The notes under the pieces are model-generated. The model saw nothing but the letters and a program-made list of their open reading frames with translations. It did not search any database and was not told the origin of the DNA. Below are positions 3,401-29,365 of a DNA stretch of 64,000 nt, one piece after another (the first letter of the stretch is position 1; the number at the start of each line of letters is the position of its first letter). A program made the translations under genes and the position numbers. The DNA is from Aldrovandia affinis (lineage: Eukaryota > Chordata > Actinopteri > Notacanthiformes > Halosauridae): assembly GCA_029706075.1 (NCBI GenBank), contig JAINUG010000196.1, positions 1,025,001-1,089,000 on the forward strand, written 5' to 3'.

Positions 3401-6400
3401 TGTGTCTGTTTGTGGTCAGTCTGTTTGGCATGCTACATTTTCAAGGGGCAGTTGAAAACGTACCTGTTTAGGCAGGCGTTTGGGCACTGAGAGACTTAAC
3501 TGCCGTTTTTGCTCATGTGGCTGTTGCTTGTCCTGTACTGTTTTGTTGCACTTTTTGACAAAAATCATTTTATTGTGAGATTTGAACATGTATTTTAATT
3601 TGATATTTGACATAAGGTTTTATAGTTTTTTTAATGGGTTATTAATGTATTTTAATGCACATTAATGTATTAATGTATTTTAATTCCCAGAGATATTTGA
3701 CATTTTTTTACTTCCTTGACCTTGTTGTGAAGCACTCTTTGCACTTGTGCTGGGAAGGGTGCTATATAAATAAAGTTTGATCTTATCTTATCTTATCTTA
3801 TCTTACTGCACACACCCTATGTCACTTTGATGTTATGTTTGAGCATTGCACATTTTGACCGTTCTGTGTTTTGTTCAGTGTTGTGTGCTCCACAAGTGGG
3901 CAATGCAGTTATGAAGTTCAACCTGTGTTTGGGGCAAAGCTTGTAGGATCAAACATGCACAAGACAAAAATCTCAACGAAAAAAGACGGTATCTGACGCC
4001 CGATCCGTATCCAAAGGCCATTGGATGGCGCTCCTTTACGGTTTATTCAGTCGCTATGACTGCAGAGCCGACATTGACGCTGTTGTTAAGTTGATGTACC
4101 CGCTATTATATTAAGCATGACCAGACCTGCAATCTGCTACCGTTAGAGCGAAGGCATATTTCTCTCAACGACGACAACAGGGGCTTTGTAAATGCACAGC
4201 AATTGAACTAAGTAAAGCATCTGACTGCAGCTGTCAGTGTCCGTTTCACTTAGCCCCCCCCCTGCCGCTTGTGGGTTCTGCAGGAAAAAACTGTCCGTGG
4301 AGATGAGATTCAGTGTGGCGTTGTTGAGGAGCAATGGTGGGAGGAATGCTTTTACGTCATCGTCGTTAAATGCTTGACAGGACCTTTGAAAATGCAAGAC
4401 TCTGTACCCCACTGACTCAGTCAGCATGCCGGTGGCTCAGTGACTCAGTCAGTGACCCCCCAAGACTCAACTCAATGACTGAGTCAGTACTCCTCTTGTG
4501 ACTCACTCAGTACTCCAGTAACTCGGTCAGCATGCCGGAGACTCAGTGACTCAGTCAGTACTCCCCAAGACTCAACTCAATGACATTACATTTTACATTT
4601 TAAGCATTTAGCAGACGCTCTTATCCAGAGCGACTTACAAGATGTGCATTAATACATGGTAGGAACAATCATAGTTTGTGCACAAGGTCAGTGCAGTAAT
4701 ACAGCGATAGACATCATTGTAGGCAGCTGAATATCATACCATACCTGTAATACTGGGAAGGAAAGGGTTAGTGATTTTTTAATTTTATTAAATGAGAAGG
4801 CAGGGATACATATACAAGAAGTGTTGAAGCAAGTAGGCAGTGGTGATGACAATTGGCTAGATGTACAGAATTCAGTGGTAGTGGAGATTGAAAGGGTGGG
4901 TTTTGAGTCCTTTTGCGGAAGATCGCCAGTGATTCTGCCGTCCTGACCGAATGACTGAGTCAGTACTCCTCTTGTGACTCACTCCAGTAACTCGGTCAGC
5001 ATGTTCACGACTCACTGACTCAGTACTGTAGCGTAGCCAGAGCCCCCCCCATCCTGATGTGTGTTGGCCTGGCTTTTCCAGTTCAGCGGCGGCGAGGAGG
5101 AGAAGATCAAGCGAGCGGTCGGCACATTCTGCAGCAACCAGCCCTTCGCCCTGGAGCTCATTAAGACCCGGCAGAAGAAGGACACGCGATTCTCATCCTT
5201 CATGCTGGTAAGGGGGGCCGGGGGCAGACTGAAAAGATTGCGTGCGGAATGCAGACATTTCAGGCCCTCGGGAGAGCGCCGTGGGCTCGGCGACGAGTCC
5301 GTGGCTCACTTTATGGAAACGGTGTGTATAAATGCCATGCGTAGCGGTGAGCTGAGATTTCTCGTTTCCCCCATTACCTCAGCAACATTAAGAGCAGTGT
5401 AATTCAGATTAAACGTTGGTACTAGGGGAAAGTGTGAATTAAATACGACACGTTGAGCCGCAGCGCATTGTAACACATTTCCAATTAAAAGCAGTGCCCC
5501 TGTGTGCTGAAGAGTCTCCTTGGTAGCTGGGAGGCTCGCTTTTGAAAGAGAGATGATGATGACTAGAGGTGTGCGGTGTGATAATACCGCTGGATATCGG
5601 CCTGAGGATGGGGCCTGCCAGAAACATGACATTACATTTACATTTCAAGCATTTAGCATTTAGACTTACAAGATGTGCATGTACATGGTAGGATCAATCA
5701 TAGTTCACGCAAGATCATAGTTCGCGCAAGAAACTTTGGGTTCTGCATTTGGTTTGACGTCACTGTGCTGTTTTGTTTTGCAGGAGGCGGAAAGTAACCG
5801 CCTGTGCCGTAGACTCCAGTTGAAGGACATCATCCCAGCGGAGATGCAGAGGCTCACCAAGTACCCCCTTCTCCTGGAGAATATCGCCAAGTACACAGGT
5901 GCAGTACCCAGCCCCGCCTGCAGGGGCGCCGCTGTATGCGTGTTCAAAAAGGCTGCTTCCTCCAGCCTGGCCCTCGGTTTTGCGAGTCCTTCCACCATAG
6001 TGAGAGTGGAGGGGTTTATCATGCACTTGAATACCTGCTTCTGTTGAGCAGGAGGACAGGGTTATCCTGCGATTCTTTGTGTGGTAGCCCTCGCTGTGGT
6101 GTCGGCGATGCCTGACATTGAAGGCCTCTCGAGGGCAAAGGGATGATGTCACAATCAGTCAACTTCAGTCACAGTCAATAGGCGTTGGTCAATAGTTGTA
6201 GTTACTTGACAAAATCTATTTGAATTCTAATAATACATCTGATTTGGTATTTATAGTATCCTATTTTTCCTATGTATGTTTTTATATCAAACAGAAAGGT
6301 TTTTGTTGTGCTTTTGCCTTATGAGTAAAAATTAAGATATTTTTTATTTTTTTTAGCATCACATTTTTGTAGCATAGGATCACAGTGAAATTGAATCATC

Positions 6401-9400
6401 CTTTATCATTTTGAGCCGCTCTCAAATGCATGATCCAGTGAAAACAGCCTCCGACGTGGGCCAGTGGTTACTGGGGTTCGACTGGCCATGGCAGAGTCGA
6501 TTCCCCATCACGCCGGGAGTGCCACCAGGGCAGGCAATTGGCTGTCCGCCCCAGGGAGGGGGGAGGGAAGCCGACAGGATTTTCACCGCGCACAGGAGTG
6601 GCTCTGGGTTGCCGGAGTTACGGCCGACAGCTTGGCAAGTGCCGTCTCGGAAGAGACGATGCTTCACCTTCGACACTGCCTACGGCAGCAAACTCAAAGT
6701 ACGAGGGGGGTGATTGACATGAAAAATAGCAGGTGTAATTAGATACCAAATTGGGTCAAATAAAAATCTGAAACAAAACTTCCTTGAAAAAAACAAAATT
6801 TTTTTTTTTTTGGTGAGTTGAAAGGAATCATCCCACGTATTACATCCCAACTGGTATGTTCATATATAAATGTTACATTTTTCTGATGATGCCAAGAAGT
6901 TTGGATCCCCGGGCTCGCCGTGTGCAATATGGGGTCAGGTTGGGGCGTTGGATGCTCTCTCTGCGCACATTTGGCCGAGGCGTATTGTAATGGCGATCCT
7001 CAGAGAGCCCTGGCAGCAGGCCAGCGGGCGGGGGAGAGGATAGTGGCTCTGTTCTCTCTCAGTCAGCCCGATGCCATTATTTCTGCCTGCTTTTTAAGAG
7101 GATGATGTGGCTGCTGGCTCGGGATCAGAAGGCTACTTTCAGCTCCGCTATGTATGGGGCCTGATCACCGCTGGAAATAGAGGGTTATCAGTGGCCTGTT
7201 GGTTTGACTGTGTGTGTGTGTGTGTGTGTTTCACAGAGGACACGGAGGAGAAAGATAAGGTGAAGAGGGCAGGAGAATGCTGTCGAAAGATACTCAACTA
7301 TGTCAACCAGGCCGTGAAGGAAGCTGAAAACAAACAGGTTTGCTCACACACACACTGGCACCAACGAGCCCACACGCGCAGACGTACAACACACAGACAC
7401 TCACACGCTCAAAATAGCAGTGGCATTGATGTTCACCTCTTTATGTCCCACAGAGGCTGGAAGACTACCAGCGGAGACTGGACCTGTCCTCGCTGAAACA
7501 GAGCGAGAACCCCATGATCTCTGAGTTTAAGGTGAGTCACTGTCCAATAGGCCTCTCGCGTAGACTACTTCCGTTTTCATGCCCCGTTCGGTTAACCGGT
7601 CAGCACATACTGGAAGTCCCGAGGTTCATATCCCAGAGGGTCTACTGTGTTTGACAAGAACATATTGAGAGAGAGCACCGTGTTCCATACAGTAACTAAT
7701 ATATTTTTATATATAACCAGATTTTAGTACCTGAGATGGGTACATTGTAGCCTCATTATACTCAATGGACATAAAGCATTAAAAACTAATGTTTAATTTA
7801 AATGATGACTTAACCACATAGCAATCTCTCAATGGGGCATTCTAGGGAAGCAATTGGCACTTGAACACACGTCCTCATCAAGCATGAAAATATCTGGGCT
7901 CAGAAGCACATCTGCTTTTATTGAGACGAAGGCAATGTCGAACAGTGATACAGTGGCATCAGGGTTTGCAATTAATTTAGTTTAGGCAGTTTTTAGGCCT
8001 ATCTTGGCTATAAATCGCTGAGGGAATCCCTGGTATGTATGTGGATTATGTTTCCGTGGGGAGGGTGTCCTAGGGCTCACGGCCACATTCTCTGTCCCTC
8101 AGAATCTGGACCTGACCAAGAAGAAGATGGTGCATGAAGGACCTCTCTCCTGGAAGGTCAACAAAGACAAGACAATCGGTACGTAACTGCAACAACAAAG
8201 ACAAGACAATCGATACATAACTGTGACAGCAGACAAGACAATCGGTATGTAACCATAACAACGAAGACAAGATAATGGGAATGTAACCGTAGCAACAAAG
8301 ACAAGAGTATCGCTACGTAACCATTACAAGAGATGTCACTGCATGTACACCGTATGATGAATCAAATTTTAAAAAGCAATGCACTTGGAATGTACCCAAA
8401 ACTGGGGATGTCACTGAATAATGTGTTTACAGTATAGCTGCTTTTAAAAAATGTTATATAAACTTTCAGGGTCCCATGCAGTTTTTAGTTGAGTTATTTG
8501 CAGTAACTTTTTAAATAGACAGTTGTAAACGGCATTGAATGCAAGATGCATTTTATGTTCCTTTTCTGTTTAACAACAGCGATGGTGTAGCCTATACGGG
8601 GGTAACTGCTTTTCCGTTCAGACCAGCAAAGAAGTCAAATGTGTTGTAGGCATAATAAATAAATGTTTGAGCATAGATTTAAGCCCAAAATATTTATGTG
8701 GCTAATAAATATTTTGCTGAACACGTACTCTTTTTACTGCTCGACGTGAGTTGGAATAATTGATTTTTTTAACAAGAAAATGTGTACAGTGTTTGCCAAG
8801 GGGCCTGAGGCGGAGCATCGCTGTTTATTTGTGGCGGTACATCACGCAGCGCATTGGTAATTGCATTGAAAGGAATGTCAGTGACAGTGATTAAATGGCT
8901 TAATGTAAAAACTCAGGCTACAGGGAGCTCGCATCCTCCTTTCTTTACAGAGTTATGTCGACCGAGCAAGTGAGCGAAGCGATTCCTCACCTATTGGCTC
9001 CTGGCTTGCTGGCGATGCACAGCTCCTTTATGAAGGAAATGCGTGGTGCGATAGTAACGCTATACGGTACGGTATAACGTATAAGGTCCGCGTCCAGACC
9101 GTATCAGCGTGTGGGTTATCGGGAAGTTGCGCCACGCTTGAGTTTGTGTTGCGGTTTGTGCAGCGGTGTAACCACGTGAGCACAGACGGCAGCGGTAGGT
9201 GCCCTGGAGCATAGGCTGGATGAGAATGAAGTCAGATTTCCATCTGACCTGCCTTCTACGCAAACAGGCAGTTTCATTCCCCAGTCACATGCCAGTGCTG
9301 TCTTCCACTGCAGCCATGATTTTTCACCTTTGCTGGGCGATCGCCCACTTTGAATGTTGTGAATTTTGCTGCGTCGTTGTCTTTCCTGTGATTCCTGTGT

Positions 9401-12159: not shown

Positions 12160-15100
12160 TTACATTGTTGACTATATCACAGCTCTGTCTGCCACTTTAT
12201 TAATGCCCCATCTGTTACATTTGTTTCACTGTGATTCATCATTTTGGCTACACTGTTACATCACCGCTACACTCTGTTACATCATTTGCAGTCTGTTGCT
12301 GTTACAGGCTGCATCATTCCAACACTGAGCGATACATCTCTCATAGCTGCGGCTGTGTTGCCCTGTCTGTAAGATCGATCCGTCTTGCAGACAAACTGAC
12401 TCTCTCTCCCTCCTCCTCCTCTGTCACAGTGGCCGCTCTCCGGCAGGTCCTGGTGAACCAGATGATGGCCCAGGAGGAGGGCGAGAGGGCCGGGCGAGCT
12501 GGGGGCGGGCGGCTCTTGAGGACCACCTCCCTGCGGGGCCCCATGGAGAGCACGGGGGCCCGGGCCTCCGCCCCACTCCACTCCCCGGAGAATGGTAGCG
12601 GGAGGGAGGAGGCAGGCCACGCGCTGGCCTCCGGGGACACCGGCTTCTTCGAGACATCTGAGGACTGCGGTAAGTGCGTTGTGCCGCTCGCCTCCCCTTT
12701 AACGCGGAGTCCATTTACCCTTCCCCTGCATCGCTCAGTTCAACTCCATTCAGGCGACAGTGTAGTATAATGGTTAGGGAACTGGGCTTGTAACTCAGAG
12801 GTTGCTGGTTCGATTTCCAGGTGGGGGTTGGAAGGTTGTACCCTTGAGCAAGGTACTTAACCTGAATTGCTTCAGTAAAAATATCCAGCTGTATAAATGG
12901 ATAGTATGTAAAGAAATGTAAACTGTGTAATACGGATAAGAGTGTCTGCTAAATGCCTAAAATGTCATGTAAATGTAAAATGCATTCAATTCAAATTGTG
13001 CTTCTTCGGTATCACTGTGCCCCTCCCTCCATCCCCATCTCGTCCCTCCTGGTTGGACACAGGAGCCGGGCAGCTCCGCCAATACTAACTCTTGTCTAAA
13101 GAGAGCCAGAAACAGAGGGAGGAAAATGGAGAGGAGGGGAGAAACAGGAGCGGGGGAGGGAGGGGGAGAGAGAGAGAGTGAAAAAGGAGTCAGTTTTCAC
13201 TATTCCACAGGTGTTGAACGTGGCACAGTGCCACCTAGTGCTCTGTAATGGAGTCCACTGTTAGTTTTACACCATATCACTCTCACAATGTACAGTGCTA
13301 CCAAAGCAAGGTTACTGATTTTGAGTGTATGATGACTAAAATAATGGTGACACTGTGTGGTGTACATTTAAATAAACTGAAAATAAAGGATCATCTTCCC
13401 ACCTCCCCCTACACAAAAATCCAGTTGTTAGTTCGGGATATTTGCTGACTCTCGGGATAGTTTGGGATTTTTGCTGGCTGGTTGTCAGGTCTTCTGTCTG
13501 CTCCCCGTCTCACAAAAGCGTGGGGTTCTTACTGTAGTCCGAGAGGGTGTTAAACCAGGGTATCTGGCCTTCACATTTTTGGGAGTAACCCTCCATGTTT
13601 TTGCATTTTTGTACAGGGTAACAGGAACTCTCTCTGTGTCTTTTCTCTTTCTCAGCAGGTAGCTACATGGTTCTGGAAGGCTACGGGGGCTCGGGGGAGA
13701 GCAATACCGACGACGACCTCCAGGGCGGCGAGAAGGACCTGGGAGCCCGATTGGTCTCTGCGGCGGACTCCGGGATCGACCTGAAGAAGCTGCTCTCCGC
13801 TTCCTCACAGCCAGGGGGCACCCCTAACCTCAGCCGGCAGGTCATGACGCACCTGCGCGTGCTGCAGGCCAACCTGCAATACCTGAAGGTGAGGTCACGT
13901 GACCCCGGCCAGGCGCACCCAGTCAGCACTGGCTAGTCACTACTGCTCCAAATCGCACACAGCCTGAGCCAGGTCTGTCCAAGCCGGCCACCTCAATCAG
14001 GTCATTGTGTCAATAGATGTAGCATATTTCTAGCTGGCTTCTACACATTTGTTGAGGGTTGGGGTTAGGTGGGTGGGCTAGGTTTAGATCAGGTGAAAAT
14101 GTTCATTTTCCAGTCGCAATTGGGTTAGGGAAATGATGTATTAGGGGAACGATTCCCTGAATTAGGGGAATAATTTTAGTTCTGATCGTGCCTCAGATGT
14201 AGCTTTTCCTTGTCTGTTGAAAGATTGGGAATGAATCCCCTGATTAACCTCCTTTAACGGTTTTGGTGGCTTCTTCTGAGTCTTTCCACTGTGCTGATTT
14301 TGTTGCAAGCTGAGTCGATTGCAATTTCTTTTCTTGCAGGATGTGGAGAACAGATATAACCAACTACGCCAAAGCATGGCAGCAGCTACTGACACAGACG
14401 AAAACAAAGGTATTTTAACTCCCTCTTTCATCTGTCCCTCACCTCTTCTTTTGTCTGCCAATACAGCACCAATCCTGCTATATACAACTGTTTATAACCA
14501 AGAGAGACAACAGAGCACTGATTATTAAAAACAATGTACAAGAACAATAACAAAGAACAGATTATCAGATGCATTCCTCTTTAGTCAGTGAGGTTGTACA
14601 CATCTCCCTCCCCCAAACCGCCACCAACAATGCAACTATCTTCCTTCTATAAAATTGGCCAGTCTAGTTTGCATCTGCTAAGGTAGTGTCAACCCACGGA
14701 ATCCACCCCTAAATCACATCATTGTCGTATGAGAAAGTGCTTTTGAACAAACAATCGATGGCTACGGCTACTCACTACTCTGCTTCGCTGCCTTTAGAAG
14801 ACCAGATTGGCTGAAGTGCATTGCTGTAGCCATCGATTGTTCATTTGTTGTCTGGTCGTTTGGAACGCTACTTCCACATACTTTGTCATGCCTCTTGCCC
14901 CGTAACAGTAAACGGACTGTGATCTTTGGTTCATCGTATACAGGTCGCTGGCCTCCTCCCTGAGTGGTTTGTTCCTTTTTGCCATTTGTCACGCCACCTA
15001 CTCATTGATTCTGGAAAAATACACACAATGCAAAAAAAAGGAAGCTCGCAATGTAATTGAACTGAAAGTTCAGATTCAGCAGGCTCTCCTCTGGTAGATT

Positions 15101-16642
15101 GAAATGAGTTTGCTTCAATTCACTGGGGTTTAGACTTTTTGTCAAGGCAGGCGATAGAGAGAGTGATGTAGTGTGAAACGAACAGATGCAGGGTTGCCAA
15201 CCCTCCCGATTTCGCCGGGAGGCTCCTGGAAAATCAGCCCAACTCCCGGGCTTACGGCCATGTGCCGTATCCTCCTGGATTTGGAAATAAAAAGCGTGTT
15301 TTATTTAGTGTTATCATTGTGTATCCTCTAGCACTGGCGAACGAGTGTAGTTTACTGCATGCGGTACATATATGTACATGTGCCCGCTATGGCTAGCGCT
15401 GCAGCTGACGAACAAGTATTTTTCACTGACTTCACCCCAATATACACGCATGCGAATTTGCCGCAACGTACGAGTGTCGTTCAATGTGTAGTAGTCTACA
15501 TTAGTAAGTGCACGTGCGACTTCGTATGTCAGTGAAAATGGCAGAGGATAAACAGAGGAAGACGAAGAAGTGGTCCCAGAAATTTCAATCGGAATACTGT
15601 GCCGAGTGGCCAGGAAATCGCAAAAAGGAATTTATCATGCATTTTGCACGGTATGTAATATAGATATTTCTGTTGAACAAGGTGGTCGGGATGATGATGA
15701 CATTTGTGGTGACTTCTCATCTCATCTCATTGTCTAAGCCGCTTATTCCTGGTCAGGGGCATATTGGCAGTAAATAACACATGGAAATCGCCAAGGCTTG
15801 TTTGGGTTCCAATACTGTGGTGACTTATTTAGCCAAATAAGGTAGCGAAGAAAAGAATGTTACAAGAGCTGAACTGTACTTCATGGGCTTTATTGTGGAA
15901 CATAATTTACCGATAGCAGCATCAGATCACAGGGTTATTCCTCACTCAAATGCATCATGTGAAAGAACTATCAGCGTAGTGCGGAAAAACAAAACTGAAT
16001 TTCAGCTTGTGAAAACTTTGCAGTCACTGTTGATTGAGAAGCTGTTGTAATCAGCTCCTTGCTACTAAAGAGACTATTAAGGATTTGGTCAGAAGCGCAA
16101 AGCAAGCAACCTACAAAGCTTTAAGCAGTGCAAAACAGGAAGCAGGAGGGAGAGAAGCACTCCTCTCCAGCACTAGTAGTAGTCAGTAAGGTGAGAGTTA
16201 AAGTATTTAGCAAATAGTTGTTGTTGTAAAGGATGATCTCTTTATTGCTAAAGAGTAAGAAATGCGTGAAATTGAAATTGCCTTTAAATTCTGCAGTTTT
16301 CCTTTGAAAATTTTCTGAGGATATAGAACTATAGAAGTACATTTTGACGAATGAAAATAACAATTTTGTAACTAAAAAATGTGCACAAGGAGCCCGCTCC
16401 TAAAGGCTTGAAAATAACTCAAACCCAGGAGCTTTCGGGCATTGCCCCTTGACCCCACCAGGGGCCCTAAGGTGGGACCCCACCCAATATTTGCGCCGCT
16501 CGCTTCACTTGCTGCGCTTGACAGATCCTCCCTGATTACAGGATTCCAATGTTGCCATCTCTGCAGGGGGTTCCATTACAGAGCACTAGGTGGCACTGTG
16601 CCATGTTCAACACACCTGTGGAATAGTGAAAATTGACTCTTT

Positions 16643-16701
<59 letters not shown>

Positions 16702-16785
16702 CTCTCTCTCTCTCTCTCCCCCATCTGTCTCCCATCCTCTCAATTTTTCTCCCTCTCTTTCGGTCTCTCTCTAGACAAGAGTTAG
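316..16785 (+). CDS. arhgef12: Rho guanine nucleotide exchange factor 12 (LARG-like), 3' part of gene, 18 coding exons plus one optional
   Basis: The product activates RhoA by swapping GDP for GTP, downstream of G12/13-coupled receptors and plexin-B, at the plasma membrane. Coding exons: 316-466, 2234-2391, 2627-2773, 3225-3310, 5082-5207, 5784-5898, 7237-7337, 7454-7531, 8103-8178, 10022-10189, 10695-10782, 10877-10954, 11094-11185, 11860-12126, 12430-12669, 13656(or 13659)-13888, 14340-14409, 16775-16785. All phases agree and give about 760 residues ending in a stop. The DH domain opens with NWQQLVSREV and EVINELFYTERAH, carries RLQLKDIIPAEMQRLTKYPL, and closes with ILNYVNQAVKEAEN. The PH domain carries ELYTLLLEDILVLLQKQDE and MSDNGAQIYELMAQTVSE. 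These segments resemble my recollection of vertebrate ARHGEF12 more than ARHGEF11, and the tail SYMVLEGY...DKS also fits ARHGEF12. PDZ and RGS-like domains are outside the window. Teleosts may have two copies, so a/b assignment is open. No frame break is seen. Confidence 0.93.
471..538. repeat. Two-copy 33-base tandem repeat at intron start
   Basis: The unit starting CTGACCATACCTGGAGTTAT occurs twice directly after the splice donor, immediately before the larger minisatellite. Confidence 0.85.
545..1757. repeat. 28-base minisatellite, about 43 copies
   Basis: The unit is close to ACAGTGGTGTAACAGTGT plus TGKAGAGTGT, 28 bases long, with G/T variation at one site and shortened or lengthened variants (for example CAGCGCAGTGGTACAG). 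It lies in an intron of arhgef12. Because 28 is not a multiple of 3 and the unit has no antisense stop, all three antisense frames stay open for hundreds of codons. These are repeat artefacts, not genes. Confidence 0.95.
1828..1863 (+). CDS. arhgef12: Possible optional 36-base exon of arhgef12 with a GC donor
   Basis: A T-rich tract ending TTTTTAG precedes 1828, and the 36-base stretch ends AG|GCAAGT, a good match to the minor GC-AG donor class. Exactly 36 bases fit the phase of the flanking exons (466 to 2234) and would add AQEGGTPKPVRR between Asp and Met without a stop. It lies just past the minisatellite. The exon is inferred from splice signals and phase only; skipping it also leaves the gene in frame. 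Confidence 0.4.
2234..2391 (+). CDS. arhgef12: arhgef12 exon: start of DH domain
   Basis: A CT-rich tract and CTCTCAG lead to 2234; the donor is G|GTGAGG. It encodes MDALGSTEVQSEDDQ, an acidic run, then NWQQLVSREVLAGLTPHEIK and RQEVIN, the N-terminal extension and first helix of the DH domain. In LARG this N-terminal extension adds to RhoA activation. Confidence 0.93.
2627..2773 (+). CDS. arhgef12: arhgef12 exon: DH conserved region 1
   Basis: The acceptor is TTTTACAG and the donor is CACG|GTACCC. It encodes ELFYTERAHLRMLKVLDGVF followed by CQKLTREAILPAADIKNIFT and NLEEIVQLH. The conserved Glu of the ELFYTE stretch is the DH residue that contacts switch 1 of Rho in solved DH complexes. Confidence 0.94.
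2890..3026 (-). mobile_element. tRNA-derived SINE, reverse orientation
   Basis: Read on the minus strand it starts with a tRNA-like head (GCAGAGCATGGC) and a B-box-like GGGTTCGATTCCC, followed by a GGCCACATATACTGAAAAAT body. The same body is found at 31221-31372, so these are two copies of one family. Intronic. Confidence 0.8.
3225..3310 (+). CDS. arhgef12: arhgef12 exon: DH domain
   Basis: The acceptor CCGACAG precedes 3225 and the donor TGG|GTAAGA follows 3310. It encodes VSITDQMSVIRKKTETSVID then QMGDDLLSW. Its start is set by phase: G of the previous exon plus TC gives Val. Confidence 0.9.
3425..3806 (+). mobile_element. L2-type LINE 3' end
   Basis: The start encodes a decayed end of a reverse transcriptase ORF (LKTYLFRQAFGH, then stop). 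The end has the typical GTGCTATATAAATAAAGTTT tail followed by five (CTTAT) units. It is a 5'-truncated, dead copy in an intron. Confidence 0.8.
4425..5030. repeat. Degenerate minisatellite (GACTCAGTCAGTACTCC-like) split by a LINE
   Basis: Repeated motifs such as TGACTCAGTCAGTACTCC and AACTCGGTCAGCATGCCG occur at 4425-4584 and again at 4950-5030. The two halves are separated by an inserted L2 fragment flanked by AATGAC on both sides. Confidence 0.8.
4585..4949 (-). mobile_element. L2 LINE 3' fragment, reverse orientation
   Basis: It begins with the reverse complement of an L2 tail (GCAGACGCTCTTATCCAGAG) and continues into the 3' end of the reverse transcriptase ORF. The 6-base direct repeat AATGAC (4579-4584 and 4950-4955) marks the insertion. 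The related copy at 20098-20830 is longer. Confidence 0.85.
5082..5207 (+). CDS. arhgef12: arhgef12 exon: DH domain
   Basis: The acceptor TTTTCCAG precedes 5082 and the donor CTG|GTAAGG follows 5207. It encodes FSGGEEEKIKRAVGTFCSNQ then PFALELIKTRQKKDTRFSSF and ML, matching the LARG FCSNQPFALE segment. Confidence 0.95.
5631..5720 (-). mobile_element. Short L2 LINE tail remnant
   Basis: About 90 bases match the tail-proximal part of the copies at 4585 and 20098 (CTTACAAGATGTGCATGTAC). Heavily decayed. Confidence 0.65.
5784..5898 (+). CDS. arhgef12: arhgef12 exon: DH conserved region 3
   Basis: The acceptor TTTTGCAG precedes 5784; the donor is ACAG|GTGCAG. It encodes EAESNRLCRRLQLKDIIPAE then MQRLTKYPLLLENIAKYT. 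The LKDIIP...QRLTKYPLLL block is the most conserved signature of Dbl-family exchange factors. Confidence 0.96.
6424..6780. repeat. Dispersed GC-rich repeat family, copy 1
   Basis: It contains GGCTGTCCGCCCCAGG and a GGGAGGG block, ending with ATACCAAATTGGG. Related copies occur at 30585-30830, 50272-50400 (end only, reverse) and 62500-62720 (reverse). The family type is not clear; it could be a SINE or a non-autonomous DNA element. Confidence 0.6.
7237..7337 (+). CDS. arhgef12: arhgef12 exon: C-terminal DH helix
   Basis: A TG repeat and TTTCACAG precede 7237. The donor CAG|GTTTGC is weaker than its neighbours. It encodes EDTEEKDKVKRAGECCRKIL then NYVNQAVKEAENKQ, the last DH helix, which in DH structures helps bind Rho switch 2. 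Confidence 0.95.
7454..7531 (+). CDS. arhgef12: arhgef12 exon: DH-PH connector
   Basis: The acceptor CCCACAG precedes 7454 and the donor AAG|GTGAGT follows 7531. It encodes RLEDYQRRLDLSSLKQSENP then MISEFK, the helix linking DH to PH. Confidence 0.95.
7532..8102 (+). other. Intron, no further feature recognised
   Basis: Unremarkable AT-rich intron. A stretch near 7600-7635 (GAGGTTCATATCCCAGAGGG) faintly recalls a SINE B box but has no convincing tail. Confidence 0.5.
8103..8178 (+). CDS. arhgef12: arhgef12 exon: start of PH domain
   Basis: The acceptor TCCCTCAG precedes 8103 and the donor ATCG|GTACGT follows 8178. It encodes NLDLTKKKMVHEGPLSWKVN then KDKTI, the first PH strand. The last 20 or so bases and the donor itself are repeated in tandem downstream (see the repeat at 8158-8320). 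Confidence 0.95.
8158..8320 (+). repeat. Tandem repeat built from an exon end and its splice donor
   Basis: The unit, about 33-37 bases long and starting CAACAAAGACAAGACAATCG, occurs about five times. The first copy is the end of the PH-domain exon plus its donor (GTACGT). Copies 2-5 lie in the intron with ATACAT, GTATGT, GAATGT and CTACGT at the donor position, so only copies 1 and 3 keep GT. Confidence 0.85.
8321..10021 (+). other. Large intron inside the PH domain, no gene seen
   Basis: AT-rich to mixed sequence, with a GT/GAGT-rich stretch at 9840-9945 before the next acceptor. No mobile element is clearly recognisable. Confidence 0.5.
10022..10189 (+). CDS. arhgef12: arhgef12 exon: PH domain core
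   Basis: The acceptor CCCCACAG precedes 10022 and the donor ACAG|GTGAGC follows 10189. It encodes ELYTLLLEDILVLLQKQDER then LVLKCHSKNLAGTADTKHIF and SPIIKLNTVLVRSVAT, matching the PH strands of LARG. Confidence 0.96.
10491..10532. repeat. Two-copy 21-base tandem repeat
   Basis: TTTGTGACAGTCATAAACCC occurs twice in direct tandem within an intron. Confidence 0.7.
10695..10782 (+). CDS. arhgef12: arhgef12 exon: PH domain
   Basis: The acceptor CCACCAG precedes 10695 and the donor AC|GTGAGT follows 10782. It encodes DNKSFFVLSMSDNGAQIYEL then MAQTVSEQRT, including the last PH strand and the start of the C-terminal helix. Confidence 0.95.
10877..10954 (+). CDS. arhgef12: arhgef12 exon: PH C-terminal helix and tail
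   Basis: The intron before it is short (94 bases). The acceptor CCACCAG precedes 10877; the donor GGA|GTAAGT follows 10954. It encodes WQCLITQRADSMKTKPHNVI then PLPQT. The Trp is the conserved PH C-helix residue. Confidence 0.9.
11094..11185 (+). CDS. arhgef12: arhgef12 exon: C-terminal tail
   Basis: The acceptor TTCTTTAG precedes 11094 and the donor CCAG|GTGTGT follows 11185. It encodes DGERDAVEIIGAGVKLNKDP then DRTSTGSIQSP. The motif before the donor (SIQSP) resembles the LARG tail. No known domain. Confidence 0.88.
11860..12126 (+). CDS. arhgef12: arhgef12 exon: acidic C-terminal tail
   Basis: The acceptor GTACACAG precedes 11860 and the donor CCT|GTGAGT follows 12126, leading into a GA repeat. 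It encodes a low-complexity, Glu/Pro-rich stretch (GSNPFDEIKPEEEGEELDRE, two GQE units) and ends EEALRT. Probably disordered. Confidence 0.9.
12430..12669 (+). CDS. arhgef12: arhgef12 exon: C-terminal tail
   Basis: A CT-rich tract and TGTCACAG precede 12430; the donor TGCG|GTAAGT follows 12669. It encodes LAALRQVLVNQMMAQEEGER, like the leucine-rich helix in the LARG tail, followed by a Gly/Arg-rich and Ser-rich stretch. The exon is markedly GC-rich. Confidence 0.9.
12756..12982 (+). mobile_element. tRNA-derived SINE with L2-type tail
   Basis: It has an A-box-like TAGTATAATGGTTAGGGA, a B-box-like GGTTGCTGGTTCGATTTC, and a 3' region ending GATAAGAGTGTCTGCTAAAT, the tail shared with L2 LINEs that mobilise such SINEs. 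It is in the intron between the exons ending at 12669 and starting at 13656, next to the inverted terminal-exon copy. Confidence 0.85.
13017..13254 (-). repeat. Inverted copy of the arhgef12 terminal exon and flanks (arm A)
   Basis: The reverse complement matches 16571-16859: the CCATTACAGAGCACTAGGTG block, a CT-rich tract, TTTAG|ACAAGAGTTAG (the terminal exon with its acceptor, here at 13085-13097), then the first 70 or so bases of the 3'UTR. Outside the CT tract, mismatches are few. It lies in reverse orientation in an intron two exons upstream of its partner. Confidence 0.9.
13656..13888 (+). CDS. arhgef12: arhgef12 exon with tandem CAGCAG acceptor
   Basis: The acceptor reads CTCAGCAG|GTAGC, so splicing after either AG keeps frame. 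Using 13656 adds one Ala, using 13659 omits it. It encodes GSYMVLEGYGGSGESNTDDD, a match to the LARG NYLILDGY segment, then SAADSGIDLKKLL and the coiled stretch MTHLRVLQANLQYLK. The donor is AAG|GTGAGG. Confidence 0.92.
14340..14409 (+). CDS. arhgef12: arhgef12 penultimate exon
   Basis: The acceptor TTCTTGCAG precedes 14340; the donor AAAG|GTATTT follows 14409. It encodes DVENRYNQLRQSMAAATDTD then ENK, continuing the short coiled coil begun in the previous exon. Confidence 0.92.
15190..16500 (+). pseudogene. Decayed, internally deleted hAT-like transposase copy
   Basis: The stretch from 15538 encodes MAEDKQRKTKKWSQKFQSEY then CAEWPGNRKKEFIMHFARYV before a stop. After a gap, 15860-16050 encodes RAELYFMGFIVEHNLPIAAS and CERTISVVRKNKTEFQLVKT. 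These recall the two ends of a BED/hAT-type transposase-derived protein family of fish; the middle is missing. A GGGTTGCCAACCCTCCCG motif at 15192 and a degenerate end near 16440-16490 may be the element ends. Intronic and dead; family assignment is from memory. Confidence 0.5.
16648..16720. repeat. (CT)n microsatellite serving as polypyrimidine tract
   Basis: Long CT run with few interruptions directly upstream of the terminal exon acceptor. Confidence 0.95.
16775..16785 (+). CDS. arhgef12: arhgef12 terminal coding exon (Asp-Lys-Ser-stop)
   Basis: A long CT-rich tract ends CTCTCTAG before 16775. G from the previous exon plus AC gives Asp, then AAG, AGT and the stop TAG. The resulting C-terminus, DENKDKS, agrees with the Asp-Lys-Ser end I recall for mammalian ARHGEF12. 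A second, inverted copy of this exon with its acceptor lies at 13085-13097. Confidence 0.85.
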
Positions 16786-18638
16786 TATTGGCGGAGCTGC
16801 CCAGCCCCTGTATCCAACCAGGAGGGACGAGATGGAGATGGGGATGGAGGGAGGGGCAGCCTCTTGTCTCTATCCTTTGGGATGTCCCATCGCAGCCTGT
16901 GTCCCAGACCCCCCCCCCCGCCCCACCCCCTTACTGCTGAGCCCCTCCCATCACAGACTGAAGAAAGCGAGTGAGAGAGGGAAGGAGGAGGGTCTTCCGA
17001 AAGGCTACTCCCCTTTGTCAGCACAAGGCAATCAGGGAAGACGGACTGCCCTCGCATGCATGCTCTGGCCCCACCTCTACCACCATGACCCCACACCCAA
17101 CTCTACCATCTATGGGTCCACCCCCCCCTTTCTGAACAATCCGAACAAGAACGAACTATACCAAAATGTATAAAGCTTTGTGTTTAGGATATATTAAACA
17201 CAGAAACAAGAAGAAAAAAGAACAAGGAAAATTTTAAATAATGTATTTAGATTTTTTGTTTTGTTTTATACCCCGAGATGTATTTATTTCATTTTTTTCC
17301 TGTCGTTGTCCTTTGTCGTCGTCGTCATGGATGTTGTTCTGAATATTGGGCCCTTATGTCCCCTTGCATGAATTTTGGCCTGTTGGAACCTTCGCCCCTC
17401 GCTCCACAACAGCACCCCACCCTCACTCCCTGACTGTTGGGGGGTCGGAGGACAGAACAGACTGGGCTCTCGTGACACTACACCACCACCAGAGCCATCA
17501 GTCAGTTCCAGCCGCCCACTGCATTCACCCCGTTCTGCTCTGCTCTCGCCCGGCCTCTCCCCTCCAGCGTCTGGTTTCCCCCTCGCCGAGGACCCGCGGC
17601 GTCCCAGAGGTCGGAAGCGTTCGCATCTTCAGGCCCTTTCTGTATTCGCGGGCGCCGATTTAGAACACGAGGGCCCGTCATAAGCCAGGAGAGAAGGCAA
17701 AAGTTAAGTGCAAATTTGGATTTCGGTGACCCCGTTGACCCCCTTTTGCTCAATGAAATGTACTTTTTGTTTATTTTTTTTATTCGGTTAGGGAGGGCCT
17801 TTCTTGTCTTGCTGTTTTTCCTCACCTGGCCGTGGCGAAGTGTTGCCCGAGTGCAAAAGCTCCTCGTAGCGTGCACTGCCAGCTGGTAGCGGCGGCCGCA
17901 CTTTGAGCTGCCGGCCCCCATCGGAGCGGAACGCCGACAGCCTGCCTCTGCCAGACCTGCGCGGTGGGCAGGGGTCGCGGTGATGTCGGCGTGTAAAAAA
18001 AAATCCTGAGATTTCAGTGCCAGTTAAACAAGCTACGAAAGTTTAGCCGCTTTGAGGGACATGGAAATCGGGCCTTTGGAGGGGTCTCAGGAATACGGAG
18101 TGCATTAATGACTACTCGTGTAGGGATTTTATAGTCAGACTCGTCTGTGTCGATTCCGATTTTCAAGGCAAGCAAGGACAGTGTCGTTCACAGCGTAACT
18201 CTGTTGGGATGGGGGGTTGAGACCTGAACTTGATTTTCCTTATGAAGATGTCTCCGTTCTGGGAGGGAGAGAAGAAGACAGCTGTAGGAATATTTCAAAT
18301 AAAAGACTTTGCTGGTGGCTGAAGGAGTGACACTAGAAACCACGCATATTTTCAGATGCTCCGTGTGCTGCCTGTGTTCTCCGTTAGTGGTACTTTGACT
18401 TTGTAATGAATTCACTGCTTTGGAGCCACACGGTGTTGTTATCATCATAACCAAGGCAAAAGAAGACTGCCTGCTATTCACATCATTAACTTCCCCAAAA
18501 TAATGTTGTGTTTATCTTCTTTTTTTTTTCTCCTGAAAGACTGTACCTTCCAGAGTTCTGCATTCCCCCCAGCGCTGAGCTCAAGCCGCTGTGCATTTTC
18601 CCTCTCTTAACTTTTGAATTGTGCGTGTAAGTGTGTAA

Positions 18639-19540: not shown

Positions 19541-20097
19541 TAAATATCATTAAACATGCTTGGTGGAAACCATGATGGAACTGCATCTTTATTGTACAAT
19601 TAGATTTTTCTGACAGCTTTCAAATAGTTACTACTGAAAGGTAACTCTGTATCAGAGCATTGGTAGAAAGTAGAAAAGCATCAACCAACTGCTCATTGCA
19701 ATGAAGGGCCGAGACTATTTGAATTTGTTGCACACCACAAACAAATACTTCTTATTGGCAAGAAACCTCATGTGACGTGTCTGGGCCAATAAGAAAGGAG
19801 CAGGGGCATACGAAGTAACAACTCGCCTGAGGTAGGCAGAAGGCTCACAGACCTACAATAGCTGGGCTGTACCTCTGCGTTTGGCCTCTTAAATCATATT
19901 TCTTAACATTTGGCCTTGACACCAAACCCGGCATCTTGGTTTTCATCAATTTAATTTCATTCTTCACCAGGGGGCAAATGTTCATCGTTTTCCAAGTGAT
20001 TTGGAAACCCCATCTTGAAGACTGCCAGTGCCTCAGTAATGCCATTCAGAGGCGAGCCGCAGTGTCCTTTTCCCCTGCTCTGTATGTACGCTGAATT

Positions 20098-20830
20098 ACA
20101 TTTACATTTACATTTTAGGCATTTAGCAGACGCTCTTATCCAGAGCGACTTACAAGATGTACATTAATACATGGTAGGAACAATCTTAGTTTGCACACGA
20201 GATCAGTGCAGTAATACAGCGATATACATTGTTGTAGGCAGCTGCATACCATACCTGTAACACTGGGAAGGAAAAGGTTAGTAATTATTTTGTAAAAAAA
20301 TATATAAATATATTATTAAATGAGAAGGCAGGGATACATATACAAGTGTTGAGCAAGTCGGCAGTGATGATGACAATAGGCTAGATGTACAGAATTCAGT
20401 GGTAGTGGAGTCTGAAAAGGTGGGTTTTGAGTCTCTTGCGGAAGATCGCAAGTGATTCCACGCTCCTGACCGATTGCGGAAGGTCGTTCCACCACCGAGG
20501 GGTTAAGAATGGTTTTCTGTTGAATTTGAGGCTTGTTGATGAAAACAGCATGATGTGCCAAAGCAATGCATGTACGTTTGTTAGAGGTTGCCATGGCACT
20601 CCAGCCACAATGTCCTTTTCAGTTGGGGAGAGAGAGAAGTCTGTTGTCCATGTTATGGGGTCATCATACTGCCCAGGATTCACCACACTTTATGAAGTGT
20701 GGATCAGCCTTGTTGCCCATCATACGGTTTGAAGATCACAAAGTCTGCACAGCTCTGCTCAGCGTGATGCTCAGAAACACAGCCTGCCTTTGTTTTTGTG
20801 GTTCGCTAGCAGTGAGCTGAATGGCAGCAT
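20098..20830 (-). mobile_element. L2 LINE 3' end with reverse transcriptase C-terminus
   Basis: Minus-strand frame 20396-20686 encodes PRWWNDLPQSVRSVESLAIF then RKRLKTHLF, the usual C-terminal end of L2-type ORF2. The end at 20098 has the GCAGACGCTCTTATCCAGAG tail. It is 5'-truncated, with frame damage upstream. Confidence 0.85.
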
Positions 20831-25535: not shown

Positions 25536-26805
25536 TAGGCATTTTAGAGTATCATCATTTAGCATATGTTGTAAAAGATGGGTTCTCTTTTGCCATGGTA
25601 AGGTCTTTTTACTGCCGAAGATGCTGCAGACATATTGATTTCAAAACAGCCCATTAGGCAAAAGGATTGGCTGTCTGAGGACGCTATAACATTACATTGC
25701 TTTGTTATATGTATGTCATACATTTATCTATAAGGTACAAGGTCCATAAGGAAGACATTTGTAATATATGTACAAATTTATATTTGACACAGATATAGAA
25801 TATTCTATAAAAACTGCAATAAGTAGGCCTGTATATAAATACTGTATATTCCACATGATACAATTATATACCTAAAACTGGCAATAGCTGACATTTACTA
25901 ACTTATAATTGCTATATTTTTACAGATGTATTTAAATACTGTATATTCACTTTATTTAAATTGCCATTTATTACTTTTTTACAGGCATGTTCCTTTTCCT
26001 CTTATATTAGATGCACAAATCGCAATGTTGACTGTGATGCCTCTGTGCCTCTGTCAATGACCGTCAATGACCATATAAAAGCTTATTTGGGTAATGGCTC
26101 ATCCAGAATAGTGGTTTCTCTCTCAATCTTCTGTAAAAGAAACACATCGATAACTCTACCGCCAAAACCCATAGATGCAGCGATCTGATTATGGATGTTC
26201 TCATTGAAAGAGGACAAAAGCTTCCGATTCTGTTTAACCCTCAATGAGGAGCAGTTGCTGTGACTGCTACACACACAAAATAATTTCAACCACCCGTGGG
26301 CAGTAACCTACCAGACTGTTGTCTCACACACAGAATACTATAGCACAGGTTTTGTACTGCGGGAGAGGGTGGAGTGTTTGTTTGGACCCGTGTCTAATGA
26401 ATATCAATCGCCAGTCCAGCCAGGGCCCCCATTTTCCCCCAAGGGGACAGTAAGGGTATGGCCCCAGTTGTGGCTGGATTATGCAAGTCATATCTTCCTG
26501 TGGCACACTTCCTGAGAGCCCAGGCTCACTGTGACAAAGGCCTGCTCTTCCTTGGAGGGCTGCCTATTCAGACAACCTTGAAGCTGCAGCGCGGCTCCAT
26601 GCGTTTCAATTTCCCCCCAGAGGAGCTGTCATGGCAAAATGTGTCCGGGTGCGAAGAATGTGTCCGGGTGACGTCATCGGAATTCTTGGAATGTAGTTGC
26701 TATACCAACATGATGAGCTAGCATTCCTAAAACCCGGAAGTAAGCCTATTCTATGACATAAATTACGCACGTTCATATCTCAACTGTGAATTTTTAAGCT
26801 GTTAT

Positions 26806-27232
26806 GTGTTTTTAAAAAGTAAGCTGCTAACAAGTTGCTACATTCAAACTACAACTGTTGTCGGAATAATTAAACGTCATTACATTACAGCTAGGTGGCT
26901 AGCTACGAATAAGCATTGCTTGCTCAGCTGTACATCTAGCTAGCTGGCTAGCTATGAACATAATATATAAATTGCCTGCAGCTGGCTAGTATTTCTGAAA
27001 TGTAGCTACAGCTAGCTGGCTAGCTATGAACATAATATATTAATTATAATATATAATTATAATTATATAGCCAGCTAGCTACGAAGATAATAATATGCAT
27101 TGTGTGTTTTTAAAAAGTAAGCTGCTAACAAGTTGCTACATTCAAACTACAACTGTTGTCAGAATAATTAAATGTCATTACATTACAGCTAGGTGGCTAG
27201 CTACGAATAAGCATTGCTTGTTCAGCTGTACA
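26806..27232. repeat. Two direct repeats about 300 bases apart inside the outer element
   Basis: The block beginning GTTTTTAAAAAGTAAGCTGC occurs at 26806 and at 27106 and is nearly identical over about 127 bases. The spacer has GCTAGCTGGCTAGCTATGAA repeated twice and an AT-rich tract. Confidence 0.85.
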
Positions 27233-27241
27233 ACTAATTTA

Positions 27242-28892
27242 CAGTTAGGTCCGGAAATATTTGGACAGTGACACAATTTTCATAATTTTGGCCCTGTATG
27301 CTACCACAATGGATTTGAAATGAAATAATCGAGATGCAATTGAAGTGCAGACTTTAAGCTTTAATTTGAGGGTATTTACATCAAAATTGGAGGAAGGGTT
27401 TAGGAATTGCAACAATTTTAATACATAGACCCCTCATTTCAAGGGACCTAAAGTAATTGGACAAATGAATATAATCATAAATAAAATGTTCATTCTTAAT
27501 ACTTTGTTGAGAATCCTTTGCAGGCGATGACTGCCTGAAGTCTGGAACCCATGGACATCACCAAACGCTGGGTTTCCTCCTTTGTGATGCTTTGCCAGGC
27601 CTTGACTGCAGCTGTCTTCAGTTGTTGTTTGTTTGCAGGTCTTTCTGCCTTAAGTCTTGTCTTAAGCAAGTGGAATGCATGCTCGATCGGATTGAGATCA
27701 GGTGATTGACTCGGCCATTGTAGAATATTCCACTTCTTTGCCTTGTAAAACTCCTGGGTTGCTTTCGCAGTATGTTTTGGGTCATTGTCCATCTGTACTG
27801 TGAAGCGCCGTCCAATCAACTTTGCTGAATTTGGCTGAATGTGAGCAGACAGAATGTTCCTATAGACTTCAGAATTCATGCGGCTGCTTCCGTCTTCTGT
27901 CATATCATCAATAAACACTAGTGACCCAGTGCCATTGGAAGCCATGCATGCCCATGCCATCACACTACCTCCACCATGTTTTACAGATGATGTGGTGTGC
28001 TTTGGATCATGAGCCGTTCCAAGCCTTCTCCATACTTTTCTCTTCCCATCATTCTGGTACAGGTTGATCTTAGTTTCATCTGTCCAAAGAATGCTGTTCC
28101 AGAACTGGGCTGGCTTTTCTAGATGTGTTTTGGCGAACTCTAATCTGGCCTTTCTATTCTTGAGGCTTATGAATGGTTTGCACCTTGTGGTGAACCCTCT
28201 GTATTTGCTCTCGTGAAGTCTTCTCTTTATGGTAGACTTGGATAATGATACGCCTACTTCCTGGAGAGTCTTCCTCACTTCACTAGATGTTGTGAAGGGG
28301 TTCTTCTTTACCATGGAAAGGATCCTGCGATCATCAACCGCTGTTGTCTTCCGTGGATGTCCGGGCCTTTTTGTGTTGCCGAGCTCACCAGTGCGTTCCT
28401 TTTTTCTCAGAATGTACAAAACTGTTGATCTGGCCACTCCTACTGTTTCTGCTATCTCTCTGATGGATTTCTTCTTTTTTCGCAGCCTAAGGATGACCTG
28501 TTTCACTTGCATTGAGAGCTCCTTTGACCGCATTTTGTGGATTCGCAGCAACAGCTTCCAAATGAAAATGCCACACCTGAAATCAACTCCAGACCTTTTA
28601 CCTGCTTAATTGATGATGAAATAACGAGGGAATAGCCCACACCTGCGCATGAAACAGCTTTTGAGTCAATTGTCCAATTACTTTAGGTCCCTTGAAATGA
28701 GGGGTCTATGTATGAAAATTGTTGCAATTCCTAAACCCTTCCTCCAATTTTGATGTAAATACCCTCAAATTAAAGCTGAAAGTCTGCACTTCAATTGCAT
28801 CTCGATTATTTCATTTCAAATCTATTGTGGTAGCGTACAGGGCCAAAATTATGAAAATTGTGTCACTGTCCAAATATTTCCGGACCTAACTG
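27242..28892 (-). mobile_element. Tc1/mariner transposon, structurally whole
   Basis: It starts CAGTTAGGTCCGGAAATATT and ends with the reverse complement. It is flanked by TA on both sides (27240-27241 and 28893-28894). The inverted repeats are about 220 bases long and differ at about four sites, so the copy is young. Long repeats of this kind are typical of Tc1 elements of the IR/DR type. Confidence 0.93.
27496..28551 (-). CDS. Tc1-type transposase (DD34E), open frame
   Basis: The enzyme cuts and pastes its element at TA sites. The frame is 351 residues with no stop; family members are usually about 340. The start is probably the second Met (MRSKELSMQ, at about 28533), since the family begins there. 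Domains in order: paired-type helix-turn-helix (SIREIAETVGVARSTVLYIL), a basic GHPRKTT hinge, a second DNA-binding helix set (SKSTIKRRLHE), then the DDE core. Catalytic residues visible are Asp in ILWTDETKIN, Asp in VQMDNDPKHT and Glu in NPIEHAF, with 34 residues between the last two. GGGSVMAWACM is the usual Gly-rich box. It ends FSTKY. Activity cannot be judged from sequence alone. Confidence 0.93.
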   Translation of the reverse strand: MLRIHKMRSKELSMQVKQVILRLRKKKKSIREIAETVGVARSTVLYILRKKERTGELGNTKRPGHPRKTTAVDDRRILSMVKKNPFTTSSEVRKTLQEVGVSLSKSTIKRRLHESKYRGFTTRCKPFISLKNRKARLEFAKTHLEKPAQFWNSILWTDETKINLYQNDGKRKVWRRLGTAHDPKHTTSSVKHGGGSVMAWACMASNGTGSLVFIDDMTEDGSSRMNSEVYRNILSAHIQPNSAKLIGRRFTVQMDNDPKHTAKATQEFYKAKKWNILQWPSQSPDLNPIEHAFHLLKTRLKAERPANKQQLKTAAVKAWQSITKEETQRLVMSMGSRLQAVIACKGFSTKY

Positions 28893-29365
28893 TATGTCAT
28901 AGGATAAAATTTGAAACTCTCTTAGGCTTACTTCCGGGTTTTAGGAATCCTAGCTCGTCATTTTGGTCTAGCAACTACATTCCAAGAATTCCGATGACGT
29001 CACCCGGACACATTCTTCGCACCCGGACACATTTTGCCATGACAGAGCCCCTCCCACACCCACCCTCTCCAGGCAGGGTCTCGCTATCACTTCCATGAGC
29101 ACCACCCACCACTTGCTCACCCGCACAGATTTTATACCCAAAGTAACTATGTGCTGTTGTACACTTGGAGAAAGGAATTCAATTAAAAAACAGCTTCAGT
29201 AAACAGCCAGCTTCATAAATTGATAATATTCATAAAAATGCAAGTTTCCCTAGATAAGGGCATCGCATGTAGATTCTCTGGGGTGTCTGTCATGGTTGCA
29301 GAAACTATGGCAGCTGGGACCACTGTCAACGGAACGCCCTCCAACTGAAGGCTAATTGTAGCTCT

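Follow-up and report, generated by a model that had tools for sequence, protein, structure and literature searches.

An inverted copy of the terminal exon in an upstream intron of arhgef12: a probable local duplication later split by a transposon-like element

Inverted Alu pairs and similar repeats that flank circularised exons provide two complementary arms around those exons, which are able to pair in the pre-mRNA. Duplications of the template-switching type, such as those named fork stalling and template switching (FoSTeS) or microhomology-mediated break-induced replication (MMBIR), leave a short, inverted, local copy near its source. In plants, the inverted-duplication model of microRNA gene origin involves targeting of the parent gene. 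In such plant genes (PMC3237417), a transcribed part of a gene has been duplicated in inverse direction and gives a hairpin that matches the parent gene. Here, we describe a locus with likenesses to all of these systems, the 3' end of arhgef12 in the fish Aldrovandia affinis. The stretch of DNA analysed (the window) covers 64 kb of contig C1068 (JAINUG010000196.1) in an assembly of 1.22 Gb, and within it the terminal-exon region of the gene occurs a second time, inverted, in an upstream intron. We consider this probably to be an ordinary local inverted duplication, later split by a transposon, which persists as a slowly decaying intronic hairpin without demonstrated function.

The two arms and the end of arhgef12

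When the window was compared with itself by blastn, positions 13018-13260 matched 16858-16564 on the opposite strand (E 1.5e-55), which bears out the inverted copy at 13017-13254 and 16571-16859 proposed in the original prediction. By bit score, this pair ranks second in the window, with 214 bits compared with 391 bits for 27240-27468/28666-28894. Arm A (13018-13285, 268 bp, reverse strand) is the inverted copy of the terminal-exon region and lies inside the intron 12670-13658. The main, 3' piece of arm B (16564-16858, forward strand), as delimited by blastn and gapped alignment, contains the end of the last intron, a CT-rich tract (16641-16727, forward strand), the terminal acceptor, the D-K-S codons with the stop codon, and the start of the 3' untranslated region (3'UTR). 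The shared piece had been said to span the terminal exon, its acceptor, and the beginning of the 3'UTR, and it does so, with the AG at 16773-16774 and the exon start at 16775 both included.

The gapped alignment of the arms contains 218 identical and 25 mismatched bases among 243 aligned bases, together with 52 gap bases. Of these, 44 fall in the CT tract, the arm B version of which is longer by this number, whereas the intron part has 2 and the 3'UTR part 6. Few mismatches had been noted outside the CT tract, and the count there is 18 differences in 219 aligned bases, omitting 16564-16572, the bases that adjoin an insertion. By segment, the mismatches are distributed as 5/28 left of the insertion, 3/66 in the unique intron sequence, 9/43 in the CT tract, 7/58 in the portion that begins with the polypyrimidine stretch and ends with the stop codon, and 3/67 in the 3'UTR part.

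The homology between the arms resumes to the left of the inserted repeat, where 13258-13284 aligns with 15159-15185 at 23 of 27 bases (23 of 28 with one more base), a match score reached by none of 20,000 dinucleotide shuffles and by none of the 3,179 other forward-strand 60-mers of the window. This 5' piece of arm B, aligned to 13258-13284, is placed at 15158-15188 (forward strand). Because the homology continues across the inserted element, arm B is one piece that has been split, and arm A keeps the empty site. In other words, the predicted pair is real, but its second arm is longer than was recognised and is interrupted by an element at 15189-16563 that had been overlooked.

This transposon-like element (1,375 bp, forward strand) has the ends CAGGGTTGCCAA and TTGCCATCTCTG. 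It is flanked by CAGATG on the left and CAGGGG on the right, an imperfect 6-bp duplication, and the uninterrupted arm A reads CAGTGG. The element is dispersed: in the assembly it has 88 matches including itself (40 of 1,194 first-look candidates scored), and among the scored matches there is one other copy that is nearly end to end (query positions 3-1380 of 1382). Both ends are present in 13 of the 16 copies fetched; seven of these 13 begin with CAGGG, 11 end with CATCTCTG, and five have perfect flank duplications, as judged by eye, of 6, 8, 6, 6, and 7 bp. A Pfam search with three short pieces of its open reading frames (51, 61, and 69 aa) found no family at E values up to 1 in those frames. 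Its ends resemble those of hAT transposons, a group in which the target-site duplication is about 8 bp, and the element may be a candidate member of that group.

The assembly was also searched with each arm, by a method that passes over simple repeats and very common words. The query 16571-16859 gave 79 matches (40 of 88 first-look candidates scored), which beyond the pair itself all fall within query positions 63-206, and the query 13017-13300 gave 43 matches (32 of 32 candidates scored), which beyond the pair all fall within query positions 101-203; in both cases this is the CT-rich part and its edge. At the sensitivity of these searches, no third copy of the arms was found outside the CT-rich part with either query, and, read at that sensitivity, the arms do not belong to a multicopy family. 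A repeat-family origin was rejected on the strength of these searches, in which either arm finds only the other outside the CT-rich part. As far as can be judged from the sequence, a single-copy source is accompanied by a nearby inverted partial copy, which is what defines a local inverted duplication.

The identity of the gene comes from exons upstream of the inverted pair, the translations of which have their best match in the DH and PH domains of ARHGEF12 (1TXD, 117.8 and 138.1 bits), with ARHGEF11 scoring lower for the same translations (84.4 and 99.3 bits). All of the following features are on the forward strand. The intron containing arm A (12670-13658) is delimited by the donor GTAAG at 12670, the acceptor AG at 13657-13658, and paralogue sequence. 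It is followed by the last coding exons: 13659-13888 (GSYMVLEG...QYLK), 14340-14409 (DVENRYNQLRQ...NK), and the terminal exon, which starts at 16775 directly after its acceptor and adds D-K-S and a stop codon (16775-16785). The first two exons, which are enclosed by the arms, both retain GT/AG splice sites. The acceptor of the first is a tandem CAGCAG (13653-13658), and the exon may start at 13656 or 13659, with one codon added or omitted. The original prediction was correct in placing two exons between the arms, but its start of 13656 is the other choice of this tandem, and 13659 is the most likely one.

A probable paralogue on contig C2566 (66% identity, residues 2-77 of a 100-residue query) has a last exon that starts at C2566:1196738 with ATAAGAGTTAG, is preceded by a short CT tract, and has an identical DKS-stop ending; by eye, its 3'UTR has further stretches in common with the window. 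Because the window and the paralogue have the same DKS ending, the terminal exon at 16775 is the conserved one. The paralogue region (L028) contains an inverted pair of its own, 2235-2458 and 8471-8688 (89% over 227 bp, 6 kb apart), one arm of which sits in the last intron of the paralogue and resembles, by eye, a short interspersed nuclear element (SINE).

Several other repeats were seen in the window. SINE-like sequence lies next to arm A at 12780-12978, the start coordinate being a guess; its part 12934-12978 is repeated in inverted orientation at 20096-20141 and partly at 4595-4626, and similar sequence is found by eye in the last intron of the paralogue. At 684-1800, probably within an arhgef12 intron, the translations of open reading frames reveal a short tandem repeat array (QWCNSVGECT-like). 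The inverted pair at 26626-29045 has arms that are 96.7-97.8% identical (27240-27468/28666-28894 and 26626-26748/28923-29045), and about 460 bp of extra sequence separate the two pieces of the left arm; it may be either a transposon of recent origin that has long terminal repeats or an inverted duplication that is itself recent. A survey of 33 of 48 sequences, some of which overlap the window or one another (201,922 bases in total), gave five inverted pairs of at least 100 bp, including that of arhgef12, and two of the other four are the single structure at 26626-29045; the survey is small and biased and does not amount to a proper base rate.

Direction, order, and age of the events

Arm B matches the terminal exon of the paralogue in the sense orientation (58 bases, 76%, E 1e-4). 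Reversed arm A also aligns with this exon, less well (score 30 vs 38), and in the 20 kb examined around the paralogue no minus-strand match of arm B had an E value of 1 or less. Because the paralogue has a sense terminal exon and, in these 20 kb, no inverted copy, arm B is the source. The element is a dispersed repeat whose ends are common to other copies, and the arm homology crosses it; the duplication therefore preceded the insertion.

The probable course of events is as follows. An inverted copy was made of a segment of arhgef12 that runs from the last part of the final intron through the terminal exon into the 3'UTR (today 268 bp in arm A and 326 bp in arm B). The copy came to lie about 1.9 kb upstream, two introns before the final one, and template switching while DNA was being replicated or repaired is its most likely origin. 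A DNA-transposon-like element then entered the source arm, separating the main arms by about 3.3 kb; it is placed later because the copy in arm A is uninterrupted. The arms have since diverged to a difference of about 8%, or about 4% per arm, and outside the CT tract the small number of changes gives no sign that pairing has been selected for. When the element in the window is compared with a majority sequence of 21 other copies, 34 of 986, 51 of 1,184, or 66 of 1,258 columns differ (3.5-5.3%), depending on the strictness of the majority; to the accuracy that such counts allow, the insertion followed the duplication closely. Conversion of one arm by the other had been weighed since an initial element count (65 of 1,272 columns, 5.1%) suggested an age at least as great as that of the arm segments; it was dropped as unneeded, because 18/219 differences between the arms are compatible with an expectation of 10% (P = 0.23 for 18 or fewer, binomial).

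Outside the CT tract, 11 of the arm-to-arm mismatches are transitions, six of which keep a G-U pair and five of which break the pair, and the other seven are transversions; with the CT tract included, 11 transitions keep pairs and five break them. The pattern outside the tract resembles the expectation for neutral decay and gives no sign of selection for pairing, in numbers that are too small to decide. Against this reading, the pair-keeping and pair-breaking transitions by segment number 3:0 in the unique intron sequence, 0:3 in the 3'UTR part, and 5:0 in the CT tract, and with counts of this size pairing in the intron may still be under weak selection. Moreover, the element ages rest on the majority of few copies and may be inflated by subfamilies, and the age of the duplication and the state of the site before it are deduced from this genome.

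Predicted pairing and alternative explanations

The duplex predicted for arm A and arm B (16564-16858) has an energy of -420.0 kcal/mol, compared with a mean of -133.1 kcal/mol (standard deviation 8.3, best -153.1) for 100 composition-keeping shuffles, and with -102.9 and -76.1 kcal/mol for the arms folded singly. In a scan of 1-26000 in steps of 150, the best alternative partner of arm A, windows over arm B excepted, gave -184.6; for arm B, the best was a window over arm B itself (-145.9), followed by -142.0 in the 1-26000 scan. When 12701-17300 is folded to minimum energy, 249 of the 268 arm A bases are paired, all with arm B; the partner of the acceptor AG at 16773-16774 is 13096-13097, and that of the stop codon is 13085-13087. 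It should be mentioned that minimum-energy folds of kilobase RNAs disregard transcription order and proteins. The earlier interpretation is partly supported: the pairing potential is real, in that the predicted duplex contains the last acceptor and encloses two exons, and arm B is partly exon rather than wholly intronic. Wherever the arm A intron has not yet been removed by the time arm B is made, the pre-mRNA would form a strong hairpin around the two exons. In this part of the transcripts, the hairpin would probably be an ADAR substrate and might permit some back-splicing. A degree of editing could be expected, perhaps with a small number of circles, while use of the last exon would be affected mildly at most.

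Two other readings assign the hairpin a larger role, and both are compatible with a local duplication, which covers the origin of the pair and selection on it. In the first, the pair drives the formation of circular RNA: the donor after 14409 would be brought near the acceptor at 13659, giving a 300-nt circle of two exons (13659-13888 plus 14340-14409). The arms lie on both sides of two exons with GT/AG sites, and the duplex reaches -420 kcal/mol. According to a review (PMC6965350), a reverse-complementary flank of 30-40 nt can suffice for circularisation, and knock-down of ADAR raised circle levels, which makes the circle of the original prediction a reasonable candidate. A human circle from ARHGEF12, hsa_circ_0002100, is listed in PMC8298711. 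Against this reading, the donor and the main, partly exonic piece of arm B are 2.15 kb apart, the arm A intron may be gone before arm B is made, there is no clear sign of substitutions that preserve pairing, and arhgef12 is not named in the main text of a zebrafish circle survey (PMC6401160). A literature search found nothing joining inverted duplication, intron, circular RNA, and terminal exon, and nothing on this locus was noticed in the literature consulted, including PMC6965350, PMC8268770, PMC6401160, and PMC3237417. Overall, a pair that drives circularisation appears unlikely.

In the second, arm A is a built-in antisense decoy: by pairing with the CT tract and the acceptor of the terminal exon, it would reduce use of that exon, leading in some transcripts to read-through or intronic polyadenylation after 14409. 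The acceptor AG and the stop codon are both within the arm A duplex of the 4.6-kb fold, and the reading frame beyond 14409 is open up to 14525. However, the acceptor is predicted to be paired with or without the arm A intron (228 and 190 of 295 arm B bases paired, respectively), so that the fold alone is no evidence that arm A hides it, and transcription order would favour removal of the arm A intron first. We regard such a decoy as quite improbable. We give very little credence to a further speculation, in which the antisense copy of the terminal exon and its acceptor would be a cis-acting switch that hides the last acceptor by pairing, and the speed of transcription or the level of ADAR or helicase would select the DKS-ending protein, a read-through end after 14409, or the two-exon circle.

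The possibility that the inverted copy derives from a fold-back chimaeric read is extremely small: inverted local copies are a known type of assembly artefact, but these arms carry 18/219 differences outside the tract as well as indels, and the insertion is in arm B only. Judged by this divergence and one-sided insertion, an artefact is unlikely. Finally, many intronic inverted repeats are two opposite copies of a transposable element, and the paralogue region has a pair with a SINE-like arm by eye, but arms that in the assembly searches find only each other outside the CT-rich part, one of them including a conserved coding exon end, are almost certainly not of this kind.

Comparison with known systems

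In contrast to the plant microRNA genes, arhgef12 is an animal gene and its hairpin would have a kilobase loop; no Rfam family was found in 12670-17400 at the gathering threshold. Compared with duplications of the FoSTeS/MMBIR type, the arhgef12 event is old, diverged, and intragenic. The order of events can be read within the locus itself, since one arm carries the transposon and the other still has the empty site. If the hairpin affects splicing, a local duplication that arose by chance could give rise to regulation through circular RNA or the last exon with no repeat family involved; if it has no such effect, the locus would be a natural test of the intramolecular double-stranded RNA that a pre-mRNA tolerates.

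As in the repeats that promote circular RNA, complementary arms are found here on both sides of exons with splice sites, with arm B partly exon, and the circle in this case is a formal possibility. Unlike inverted Alu pairs, the arms of arhgef12 are single-copy gene sequence, and one of them contains the terminal exon. The locus is thus a clean example of an intronic inverted repeat built from the single-copy terminal exon of the gene itself.

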